A stretch of DNA of 64,000 nt from Mycolicibacterium confluentis (GTDB taxonomy: Bacteria; Actinomycetota; Actinomycetes; Mycobacteriales; Mycobacteriaceae). The notes under the pieces are model-generated. The model saw only the letters and a list, made by a program, of their open reading frames with translations, made no database searches and was not told where the DNA came from. The stretch spans positions 4,278,001 through 4,342,000 of the forward strand of contig NZ_AP022612.1 of the NCBI RefSeq assembly GCF_010729895.1, read 5' to 3'. This document shows positions 9,437 to 12,564 of this stretch, piece by piece. The translations under genes were made by a program, and so were the position numbers. Numbering within the stretch: position 1 is the first letter of the stretch; every line of letters begins with the position of its first letter.

Positions 9437-10354
9437 ATGAGCCAGAAATGGACTGAAGCCGACGTACCCGACCAATCCGGCCGCGTCGCGGTCATCACAG
9501 GTTCCAACACCGGCCTGGGATTCCAGACCGCACGCGTTCTGGCGGCCCGCGGCGCCAAGGTCGTGCTCGCGGTCCGCAACCTCGACAAAGGCAATGCCGC
9601 CGCGGCGCAGATTCTCGGGTTGGTGCCGCGCGCCGATGTCTCGGTGCAGCCACTGGACCTGGGTTCGCTGCAGTCGGTGCGCACCGCGGCCTCAGAACTC
9701 AAGTCCGCCTACCCGCGCATCGACCTGCTGATCAACAACGGCGGCGTGATGTACCCGCCCAAGCAGACCACCAAGGACGGCTTCGAGCTGCAGTTCGGCA
9801 CCAACCATCTCGGCCACTTCGCGCTCACCGGACTGCTGTTGGAGAACCTGCTGGGCGTCGAGGGCTCGCGCGTCGTGGTGGTGGCGAGCATCGCGCACAA
9901 CATCCGCGCCGGGATCCACTTCGACGACCTGCAGTGGGAGCGCAGCTACAACAGAGTGTCGGCCTACGGTCAGTCGAAGCTGGCCAACCTGATGTTCGCC
10001 TACGAACTGCAGCGCAGGCTGGCGGCCGCGTCGGCGTCGACCATTGCCGTGGCAGCGCACCCGGGAATCTCCAACACCGAGTTGATGCGCCATGTCCCCG
10101 GCTCGAACCTGCCGGGATACAACGCAATCGCTGGGCTGTTCACCAACAGCCCCGCCGTCGGCGCCTTGGCATCACTGCGCGCCGCGACCGACCCGGGCGT
10201 CAAGGGCGGGCAGTACTACGGTCCGAACGGTTTCCGTGAACTGCGCGGGTACCCCGTGCTCGTCGGCTCGAGCCGGCAGTCCCACGACCAGGATGTGCAA
10301 CGACGGCTCTGGACGGTGTCCGAAGAGCTCACCGGCGTGACGTTCCCGGTCTGA
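9437..10354 (+). CDS. Short-chain dehydrogenase/reductase (Rv0439c-like)
   Basis: A 305-residue classical SDR of the retinol-dehydrogenase-like group. TGSNTGLG (~21-28) forms the nucleotide-binding loop; the structural motif is NNGG rather than the usual NNAG; the active site has YGQSK with a preceding VVVASIA segment. It is probably an NADP-dependent oxidoreductase of unknown substrate. ATG 9437 is chosen because an exact -10 places the transcript start on it; the longer upstream frame lies antisense to the PH gene. The stop overlaps the moeA start by one base (TGATG), so the two are co-transcribed, as in the M. tuberculosis Rv0439c-Rv0438c pair. Confidence 0.88.
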   Translation: MSQKWTEADVPDQSGRVAVITGSNTGLGFQTARVLAARGAKVVLAVRNLDKGNAAAAQILGLVPRADVSVQPLDLGSLQSVRTAASELKSAYPRIDLLINNGGVMYPPKQTTKDGFELQFGTNHLGHFALTGLLLENLLGVEGSRVVVVASIAHNIRAGIHFDDLQWERSYNRVSAYGQSKLANLMFAYELQRRLAAASASTIAVAAHPGISNTELMRHVPGSNLPGYNAIAGLFTNSPAVGALASLRAATDPGVKGGQYYGPNGFRELRGYPVLVGSSRQSHDQDVQRRLWTVSEELTGVTFPV

Positions 10355-11562
10355 TGCGCAGCGTCTCCGAACATCAGCAGGTCGTGGCGGGCCTGATCAC
10401 CCCCCGGCCGGCGCAGACCGTCCCACTGGCCGCAGCCGAGTCCTTGGCGCTGGCGGCCGACGTGGTGGCCGGGCTGTCGCTGCCGGGCTTCGACAACTCC
10501 GCCATGGACGGTTACGCGGTGCTGGCCGCCGACGTGGTGTCGGCAAGCGCGGATGACCCCGTGAGACTGCCCGTCGTCGAAGACATCCCGGCCGGCCGCA
10601 CCGATCTGCTAGCCCTGGCGCCGCACACCGCGCACCGGATCATGACGGGCGCACCCGTGCCCGCCGGTGCGACGGCCGTGGTCCCGGTCGAGGCCACCGA
10701 CGGCGGCACCGAGACCGTCCGCATCCGCGCGTCCGCCCGGCCCGGTCAGCACATCCGCAGGGCAGGTGAGGACGTCACCGCGGGCACCACGGTGATGCAC
10801 GCCGGGCAGGTGGTCAGCCCGGCGGCACTGGGCCTGGCGGCCGCGCTGGGCATCGGCGAACTGACGGTGCGCCCGCGCCAACGGGTGCTGGTGATGTCCA
10901 CGGGCACCGAACTCATCGCGCCCGGCGCCGAGTTGAAGCCCGGGCAGATCTACGAGTCCAACGCCGTCATGCTGGCCGCCGCGGTCCGTGAGGCCGGTGG
11001 TGTCGTCACCGCGGCGCCGATGGCCGAGGACGACGTCGACGAGTTCCGCGCCGCACTGCAGGCCCACGTCGGCGAATCCGATCTGATCATCACCACCGGC
11101 GGGGTCAGTGCGGGAGCCTACGAAGTGGTCAAGGACGCCCTCGGGGGTGAGGTCGATTTCGTCAAGGTCGCGATGCAGCCGGGGATGCCGCAGGGCAGCG
11201 GGCACATCGTGGTCGACGGCCGCGAGGTGCCGATCATCACGCTTCCCGGAAACCCCGTCAGCGCGTTGGTGTCCTTCGAGGTGTTCGTCCGTCCGGCGTT
11301 GCGGGCCGCTATGGATCTGCCGCAGCCGCACCGGCGTCGACGCGAGGCGGTCCTGCGCGAATCGTGCACGTCGCCGTGGGGCAAGCGGCAGTTCCGCCGC
11401 GGGGTGCTCGACGCCGAAGCTGGCACCGTGACCAGCTACGGGCCCCCGGCCTCGCATCACCTGCGGTGGCTTGCGTCCGCCAACTGCCTTCTCGAGATCG
11501 AGGAGGACGTCACCGAGATCGAGGCCGGGTCGACAGTGGCGGTGTGGGATCTCATCGATTAG
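10354..11562 (+). CDS. moeA: Molybdopterin molybdotransferase MoeA
   Basis: A 402-residue MoeA. This enzyme inserts molybdate into adenylylated molybdopterin in the last step of molybdenum-cofactor synthesis, in the cytosol. Family signatures visible are DNSAMDGYAV near the N-terminus, VMSTGTELI, the MPT-binding TTGGVSAGAYE, and LPGNPVSALVSFE. Full length for the family. It overlaps the SDR stop by one base. It corresponds to M. tuberculosis Rv0438c (moeA2). It is followed after 84 bases by a Cys-rich peptide gene that has no clear promoter of its own and may be in the same transcript. Confidence 0.93.
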   Translation: MRSVSEHQQVVAGLITPRPAQTVPLAAAESLALAADVVAGLSLPGFDNSAMDGYAVLAADVVSASADDPVRLPVVEDIPAGRTDLLALAPHTAHRIMTGAPVPAGATAVVPVEATDGGTETVRIRASARPGQHIRRAGEDVTAGTTVMHAGQVVSPAALGLAAALGIGELTVRPRQRVLVMSTGTELIAPGAELKPGQIYESNAVMLAAAVREAGGVVTAAPMAEDDVDEFRAALQAHVGESDLIITTGGVSAGAYEVVKDALGGEVDFVKVAMQPGMPQGSGHIVVDGREVPIITLPGNPVSALVSFEVFVRPALRAAMDLPQPHRRRREAVLRESCTSPWGKRQFRRGVLDAEAGTVTSYGPPASHHLRWLASANCLLEIEEDVTEIEAGSTVAVWDLID

Positions 11563-11646
11563 CTGACAAGCGCGCGGATCCGCCCTCGGCGGGGCTCGAA
11601 CGTGAGACTCTGGTGGGGAACGATCTGTCAGCAGAAGGAGATGACG

Positions 11647-11754
11647 ATGCCTCGCAACGATCCCCCCAAGGTGGCCAAGACCTGTAGCTGCAAGTGCGGC
11701 AGGTGCAGCAACGGCGTGCACTGCGGCGCCCACTCCAGCGGCTGCAACAAGTAG
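11647..11754 (+). CDS. 35-residue cysteine-rich metallothionein-like peptide
   Basis: A short frame encoding a 35-residue peptide with six Cys (13, 15, 17, 20, 26, 33) in the pattern CxCxCxxCx5Cx6C, plus His25 and His29. It has no aromatic residue and five Lys. Dense CxC/CxxC motifs with His are typical of bacterial metallothioneins, which bind Zn, Cu or Cd in the cytosol. AAGGAG at 11635-11640 is six bases before ATG 11647; an ATG at 11641 abuts the SD and is less likely. It lies between moeA and psd, and is followed by a hairpin at 11775-11797, so it has the borders of a real unit. It does not look like M. tuberculosis MymT in sequence. Metal binding is inferred from composition only. Confidence 0.72.
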   Translation: MPRNDPPKVAKTCSCKCGRCSNGVHCGAHSSGCNK

Positions 11755-11774
11755 CCCGACGTCGAACGATTCGA

Positions 11775-11797
11775 CCGCCCCGGACACCACCGGGCGG
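11775..11797 (+). terminator. Hairpin after the Cys-rich peptide gene
   Basis: CCGCCCCGG pairs with CCGGGCGG (one bulge) around a six-base loop. A smaller dyad GTCGAA-CGA-TTCGAC lies just upstream at 11761-11775. Together they probably end the moeA/peptide transcript before the psd promoter. Confidence 0.5.
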
Positions 11798-11840
11798 CCA
11801 GATCGTTTGTGGGGGCGCTTCGACGTAAGCGAGCACTACC

Positions 11841-11846
11841 TACAAT
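11841..11846 (+). promoter_or_regulatory. -10 hexamer TACAAT in front of psd
   Basis: TACAAT is an excellent TANNNT -10. It places the transcript start at 11853-11854, i.e. on the GTG start of psd, implying a leaderless mRNA. It also rules out the in-frame ATG at 11845, which overlaps the hexamer. Confidence 0.6.
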
Positions 11847-11853
11847 GGCGCTT

Positions 11854-12564
11854 GTGGCCCGACGCCCTCGAACGTCCGAATCGTCCTCACTGGATCCTGC
11901 ACACATCGCGCGGTTGATCCGTTCCCAGGTTCCTCCGATGCATCCCGCTGGTCTGCCGTTCGTCGGCGCCAGCCTGGCCGTGGCCGCACTGGGCCGCAGG
12001 CGCAGGTGGGTCTGGACTACGGGCCTGGCGGCCGCGGCCGCCAACGCCGCGTTCTTCCGGCATCCGTCGCGCGTTCCACCGACCCGCCCCGGTGTGGTCG
12101 TGGCGCCAGCCGATGGAACCGTATGCCTCATCGAAAACGCTTCGCCCCCACCGGAGCTCGGCCTTCCCGACGAGCCGCGGCTACGCGTCAGCATCTTCCT
12201 GTCGGTGCTCGACGCCCATGTGCAGCGCGCACCCGTCGGCGGCGAGGTGGTGTCCGCGATCCATCGGCCGGGCCTGTTCGGTACGGCGGACCTGCCTGCC
12301 GCCAGCGCGGACAACGAGCGCAACAGCGTGCTCATCCGCACCCCCGACGGCGTCGACGTCATCGTGGTGCAGATCGCGGGCCTGGTGGCCCGCCGCATCG
12401 TGTGCGACGTCAAGGCCGGCGACAAGCTCGACATCGGTACGACCTACGGCCTGATCCGGTACGGCTCGCGCCTGGACACCTATCTTCCCGAGGGCTCCAC
12501 TCTCCTGGTTTCGATGGGCCAGCGCACGCTGGCGGGTGAGACCGTGATTGCCGAGCTGCCGTGA
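11854..12564 (+). CDS. psd: Phosphatidylserine decarboxylase proenzyme
   Basis: A 236-residue Psd that converts phosphatidylserine to phosphatidylethanolamine at the membrane. One or two hydrophobic segments near the N-terminus ([12 protein letters not shown]) precede the catalytic region with [14 protein letters not shown]. The autocleavage site is the Gly-Ser of [11 protein letters not shown] near the C-terminus, from which the pyruvoyl Ser arises. GTG 11854 is chosen because the -10 places +1 there and the resulting VARRPR N-terminus matches the M. tuberculosis Psd as I recall it. The stop overlaps pssA as GTGA; together they form the PE pathway operon. Confidence 0.92.

Follow-up and report, generated by a model that had tools for sequence, protein, structure and literature searches.

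A family of six-cysteine, probably metallothionein-like peptides nearly restricted to Mycobacterium, with one member between moeA and psd in Mycolicibacterium confluentis

Introduction

The mycobacterial metallothionein whose function has been studied is, according to the available part of PMC7387436, the copper protein MymT, a Cu(I) metallothionein of 53 amino acids that is regulated by RicR and copper (PMC10470581, available part). The same part of PMC7387436 describes smtA as adjoining its repressor SmtB, and the Pseudomonas cluster as having nine cysteines. Short cysteine-rich reading frames of another kind are also described from mycobacteria, namely a uORF upstream of cysA2 with a C-terminal cysteine cluster (Shell et al. 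2015; PMC4633059, available part). This source also mentions further conserved cysteine-rich small ORFs, one of which may belong to the peptide family presented here.

A first-pass annotation of a 64,000-nucleotide stretch of the Mycolicibacterium confluentis genome (contig NZ_AP022612.1, positions 4,278,001 to 4,342,000; hereafter the window) proposed a 35-residue cysteine-rich peptide as a new mycobacterial metallothionein. Searches of the open literature, by title listings and abstract openings, revealed no report of such a peptide family, and five family peptide strings had no match there.

The peptide gene and its surroundings in the window

The window encodes a six-cysteine peptide at 11647..11754 (+ strand; 35 codons plus stop), recognised by conservation, pN/pS and the family profile. 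Its translation, MPRNDPPKVAKTCSCKCGRCSNGVHCGAHSSGCNK (35 residues), has six cysteines spaced CxCxCxxCx5Cx6C, histidines at 25 and 29, and no phenylalanine, tyrosine or tryptophan. The coordinates, the frame, the cysteine spacing and the two histidines given in the first-pass annotation can be read directly from the window, and so can the Shine-Dalgarno sequence that it called good: AAGGAG (11635..11640, + strand) lies six bases 5' of the ATG at 11647. In alignments with the window, AAGGAG is kept in one of the two orthologues described below (L005) and reads AAAGGAG in the other (L006). A second in-frame ATG at 11641 directly abuts AAGGAG and is absent from L005, so that the ATG at 11647 is the likelier start; L006 has an upstream ATG similar to that of the window. 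The ORF is presumably translated from these signals. An AlphaFold model of the peptide (pLDDT 52) has no structure and is uninformative.

The peptide gene is preceded by moeA (actinobacterial MoeA / Glp-like, NCBIfam/Pfam; 10354..11562, + strand), which ends 84 nt 5' of the peptide ATG, and is followed by psd (phosphatidylserine decarboxylase, NCBIfam/Pfam; 11845..12564, + strand) and then pssA (NCBIfam, Pfam). The psd start was placed at the ATG at 11845, 90 nt from the peptide stop codon, because the alignments with many relatives begin only near residue 13-16 of the longer ORF that starts with GTG (11809). The moeA product is above the cut-off of NF050098 and just under that of the Glp/gephyrin divisome model (467.7 versus 475 bits); this closeness to the divisome model makes molybdenum a weak context for the peptide, and the role of this moeA (10354-11562) may not be molybdenum cofactor synthesis. 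The position after moeA had been taken as a possible hint of metal homeostasis, and as such it carries little weight: of the members read, none sits there but the window copy and its orthologues in two other genomes.

A GC-rich hairpin lies 3' of the peptide stop codon (11775..11797, + strand). The 79-nt stretch that contains it has a fold z of -2.45, and the corresponding region folds strongly in L005 (z -2.64) and not in L006 (z -0.36). The terminator hairpin of the first-pass annotation is right in part: the hairpin is present but has no T-run, and a search of 11400-12000 revealed neither a consensus terminator on the + strand nor a sigma-70 promoter.

Conservation at the same place in close relatives

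Orthologues were sought in contigs of one genome per species (84,980 species), a scan that detects close relatives only, and two loci were found, one in Mycobacterium sp. ACS4331 (L005) and one in a groundwater Mycobacterium MAG (L006). The order moeA-peptide-psd is common to all three, and the frame and cysteine pattern, whose loss in close relatives would have told against the ORF, are kept in both orthologues with low pN/pS. Between the window and L006, the coding part is nearly gap-free in the alignment while the flanks break up, and there are 11 synonymous and 9 non-synonymous differences, giving a pN/pS of 0.22; between the window and L005 there are 2 of each, giving 0.25, both values coming from small numbers. 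In the other frames of the comparison with L006, pN/pS is about 1.2-2.4, except in one minus frame with 0.41, still above 0.22.

The surroundings hold many overlapping spurious ORFs on both strands, as would suit a chance ORF in GC-rich DNA. The probability that the peptide ORF is another of these is next to nil, as its place is conserved, its pN/pS is low and it has 100 distinct relatives; same-place conservation and pN/pS rule this reading out. To judge from the sequence comparisons, the window ORF is a real gene: the shared place, the low pN/pS in two genomes and a genus-wide family take it beyond chance.

The moeA-psd gap was measured in the best-scoring 30 of 78 genomes, the window's own included. 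In each of the 29 others, all mycobacteria, moeA is followed by psd with no peptide gene between the two, and 0-74 nt separate it from the psd match; the exceptions are L169 (137 nt, without the peptide) and L177 (an artefact of a split alignment, also without the peptide). As it is absent from these 29 genomes, the peptide gene was most simply inserted into a tight moeA-psd pair in the window lineage.

A peptide family nearly restricted to Mycobacterium

A first profile built from four sequences matched 141 of 297 genomes of the genus at E<=0.05. With a 14-sequence profile, matches at E<=1e-3 came from 122 of 297 Mycobacterium genomes, or from 109 of 275 if only those of good quality are counted; 175 of 297 had no family match at this threshold. 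Beyond the genus, the order search matched 18 of 298 genomes, one of which (G452) is outside Mycobacterium and encodes a peptide with the full cysteine pattern (L079); the class search matched 14 of 345 and the phylum search 4 of 246, all within the genus except G321. This last genome, the sole match outside the genus in both searches, was dropped, its sequence being without the CxCxCxxC core, and two early matches (L002, L003) located inside long open frames were dropped as well. The family is thus nearly restricted to Mycobacterium and apparently unnamed: 16 database proteins were found, of which five have the source name 'hypothetical protein' and a sixth, from Mycolicibacterium rhodesiae JS60, is labelled 'EGF-like domain-containing protein'. 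The 28 members scanned are covered by no Pfam or NCBIfam model, the best model match being a yeast metallothionein (E 0.031, two of the 28 members).

From the fetched loci, 108 distinct places encoding 100 distinct peptides were read. These places are 103 of the 132 listed by the profile, L086 being merged as identical, together with L006, L070, L075, L079 and L081. About 28 of the 132 were left out; the collection used the cysteine pattern, and the profile itself favours cysteines. The fetched profile matches added no pattern-breaking member, since a fitting one was present in each of the loci L004 to L143. All 100 distinct peptides fit CxCxCxxCx4HCx5-6C, 97 of them with exactly six cysteines and 3 with seven. 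Their length is 31-45 residues in 91 cases, and aromatic residues (F/Y/W) are scarce, with none in 69 peptides, one in 27 and two or three in 4. The spacing to the last cysteine is the shorter one in 43 places and the longer one in 65. The mean pairwise pN / pS is 0.11 / 0.65 in the shorter-core and 0.26 / 0.56 in the longer-core group. Both TGC and TGT are used in most cysteine columns (in the longer-core group, for example, 47/18, 38/27 and 45/20), and two of the six columns of the shorter-core group are TGC only.

The window peptide is an outlying member of this family. In a tree of 108 rows, whose 33 columns are too few to support firm conclusions and many of whose forks are unresolved, it groups together with its two orthologues and L127 (96/82), whose N-terminus reads MPRRDRP versus MPRNDPP in the window peptide. 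A second member is encoded in the window's own genome (G000:C1:819307-819417, - strand; L036 / L144; MRSQPRGQSDHQCRCNCSRCKNGQHCHNLAAGCRAQHW), flanked by two genes that by eye resemble 3-beta-HSD/dehydrogenase/epimerase types. A divergent member (L142, in G181) sits among transposase genes (HTH_Tnp_1, Mutator type), which suggests that family members can move.

A small size, richness in cysteine, variable location and patchy distribution would also be expected of a precursor from which a peptide is secreted, modified or cross-linked by disulfides, of RiPP or bacteriocin-like type. This reading is quite improbable, given that by eye there is no evident signal sequence, that no modifying enzyme recurs among the identified clustered neighbours, and that neither phage nor plasmid carriage was found for two members: the plasmid and phage search returned no record for P0007 and no phage for the window peptide, whose one plasmid match (E = 9) is inside a helicase gene.

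Genomic neighbourhoods

Neighbours within three genes were recorded for the 108 places with a simple GC-bias gene caller on loci of 1.7-16 kb, so that the counts are rough lower bounds; the cluster names rest on one or few scanned representatives, and the SDR label was given by eye. Most frequent among them are Ppx/GppA (50 of 108 places), DUF4383 (34) and an acetate/propionate-CoA ligase (34). Less frequent are a response regulator (14), a membrane protein designated F06 (11), an NDMA-dependent alcohol dehydrogenase (9), ArsR (8), PhoD (5), a formylglycine-generating-type enzyme (4) and an SDR/3-beta-HSD type protein (4). One arrangement is recurrent: CoA ligase - peptide - DUF4383 - Ppx.

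Genes related to metals are a minority context of the family. In seven of the 108 places, one ArsR/SmtB cluster (F12) lies immediately upstream of the peptide, and a heavy-metal P-type ATPase diverges from this ArsR; the window copy has no ArsR/SmtB gene just upstream. The ArsR representative (L119) passes NF033788, and L110, which represents the ATPases, passes TIGR01512 (cadmium) but not TIGR01511 (copper). The F06 membrane protein follows the peptide in five of these seven places and is tentatively ZIP-like: PF02535 is matched, below its cut-off (3.9e-6), by one of three relatives (L102, not from an ArsR place), and two F06 proteins from ArsR places have no ZIP-model match. Orthologues of this ArsR scoring at least 150 bits are present in 77 genomes, 40 with the peptide and 37 without, and the peptide occurs in 82 of the 220 other genomes, a weak association (Fisher p 0.03, uncorrected for kinship).

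In nine places (L038, L042, L044, L049, L054, L058, L060, L062 and L084; family scanned in L058), the peptide gene lies directly 3' of the gene of an NDMA-dependent, zinc-binding-type alcohol dehydrogenase, 67-115 nt apart. Three members that end in ASHW (L135, L138 and L140) belong to an arylsulfatase cluster, where they lie directly 3' of the gene for a formylglycine-generating-type enzyme; the families of this cluster were scanned in L135 only. This enzyme class uses copper, and the neighbourhood could point to Cu instead of Zn.

The orientation of neighbouring genes bears on a further reading, in which the ORF would encode a leader peptide that senses cysteine and attenuates the gene behind it, in the manner of the cysteine-rich uORFs, some of them before hypothetical genes, reported in mycobacteria in the available part of PMC4633059. 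The window ORF is indeed short, cysteine-rich and 5' of psd with a hairpin between the two. Such a role is nevertheless highly improbable: in 48 of the 108 places the next called downstream gene is on the opposite strand, leaving nothing to attenuate, psd is no cysteine gene, the hairpin is absent in L006, and the cysteines stand in a fixed, dispersed pattern with a constant histidine and form no C-terminal cluster.

A promoter-like element upstream of many members

A 34-bp element near CGAACTATTGTGAAGTCGTCATATGTTGATATCC was found 22-70 nt 5' of the start codon in 35 of 107 places, sites being accepted from 22 identities upward against a seed derived from members; 2140 first-order shuffles reached 21 at most. 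Its left part, CTATNGTGA, chosen post hoc after inspection, lies at most 120 nt from the start in 37 of the 107 places, versus 0.004 per 120 nt across the same loci. TATNGT within the element would be compatible with a mycobacterial -10 box.

A sequence model of the element (R1) was applied to 20 genomes, 18 of them picked for having the element at the peptide; in each genome, 150 candidates out of several hundred were scored. The best match was at the peptide in all 18 element-selected genomes, three of which gave a weak second match (E 0.1-0.8), and there was no match in G000 and G190, which carry copies from other subfamilies. With stricter filters, R1 had no match in 48 genomes that the family profile does not match either, an empty result that proves nothing on its own. 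Many members apparently possess what looks like a private promoter. The element is absent from the window copy, from the second copy in the same genome and from the two orthologues; being without it, the window copy is probably transcribed from moeA, and in this lineage the peptide gene would be cotranscribed with moeA and psd.

The peptide's element is likewise absent from the three ArsR-ATPase intergenic regions inspected. Another, AT-rich element (ACATGTA...AAATGTAT type) lies between the divergent ATPase and ArsR genes in L110, L119 and L074 and is perhaps an ArsR operator. With a different element in these three intergenic regions and 37 of 77 genomes without the peptide, the ArsR cluster F12 is unsupported as the regulator of the family.

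Proposed function

The family peptides probably bind metal ions as metallothioneins do. Metal ligation is the best explanation for six constant thiolates and a constant histidine within 20-21 residues, the cysteines being retained despite switches between TGC and TGT in most columns. As for the window ORF itself, it is fairly likely to encode a cytosolic metallothionein-like peptide that buffers or detoxifies a soft metal. The six thiolates (CxCxCxxC...C...C), with the constant histidine before the fifth cysteine, would wrap a small metal-thiolate cluster, and this cluster would buffer or detoxify the metal. Six cysteines would fit a cluster of either two Zn/Cd or four Cu(I) ions, which is roughly the load predicted here. 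The histidine ligand and the Zn/Cd-type ATPase give a lean to a divalent metal, Zn/Cd being somewhat more likely than Cu(I) as candidate ligand. Several points count against a metal-binding role: ArsR is within three genes in only 8 of 108 places and F06 in 11, the peptide is missing from 37 of the 77 genomes with a close ArsR orthologue, the three ArsR-ATPase intergenic regions inspected do not have its element, two F06 proteins from ArsR places have no ZIP-model match, six cysteines are few for a metallothionein, 175 of 297 genomes have no family match, and the window copy has neither the promoter element nor a sigma-70 promoter.

The same cysteines could instead belong to a miniature structural zinc protein, a zinc-knuckle-like adaptor in which the metal folds the peptide and a partner protein or a nucleic acid is bound. 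Conserved non-cysteine residues near the ligands (often GxHC, HCxN, GC or PNC, and a basic C-terminal K/R) exceed what pure sequestration needs and would suit such an adaptor, as would the recurrent arrangement with CoA ligase, DUF4383 and Ppx. We consider it rather unlikely, since the neighbourhoods differ between subfamilies without a common partner, comparison of the peptide sequence with the PDB revealed no similarity to solved structures (best E 1.3), and a single structural zinc site does not usually have CxCxC spacing.

The metallothionein proposed in the first-pass annotation remains a candidate, favoured by the constant six cysteines and histidine, the few aromatic residues, the low pN/pS, the absence of known family models among the matches of 28 members and the metal-gene neighbours of some members. 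On balance, we lean towards a mycobacterial metallothionein family of about 35 residues that would be nearly restricted to the genus, share one signature of six cysteines and one histidine, have a private promoter element in about one third of the members read and occupy several genomic homes, the window copy being placed inside moeA-psd-pssA. Should the peptides bind metal, roughly two in five of the sampled mycobacterial species (122 of 297) carry a further metal-buffering protein, whose gene is very short and hence easily missed by gene finders, and the peptides would be among the smallest bacterial metallothioneins. With one six-cysteine core, 100 natural variants and a once-per-genome promoter element for a regulator search, the family would then offer an easy system.

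Comparison with known systems

The family shares with the cysteine-rich uORF attenuators the nature of short, unannotated, cysteine-rich mycobacterial ORFs (PMC4633059). It differs from the cysA2 uORF, as far as the available part of that source describes it: the uORF has a C-terminal cysteine cluster, whereas the family has dispersed, fixed cysteines and often no co-directional downstream gene.

Like SmtA and the Pseudomonas metallothioneins, as the available text presents them, the peptides combine cysteine and histidine ligands, and Zn/Cd binding would be a likely role. The genomic setting is similar too in a minority of cases: smtA lies beside its repressor SmtB, and an ArsR/SmtB-type gene is just upstream in 7 of 108 family members. 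The peptides differ in being shorter, with six cysteines versus nine in the Pseudomonas cluster, and in that their element is absent from the ArsR-ATPase intergenic regions inspected. The family is not part of PF02069 (Metallothio_Pro): this model had no match at E<=1 in 28 members, nor in the window's own genome, and it matched four control genomes, Synechococcus elongatus included. NCBIfam metallothionein models likewise had no match among the 28 members at E<=1.

From MymT, as described in the available text, the family is set apart by its size, mostly 31-45 residues versus 53, and by its six-cysteine/histidine signature. It resembles MymT in comprising small cysteine-rich mycobacterial peptides, which would likewise bind a soft metal by thiolates.
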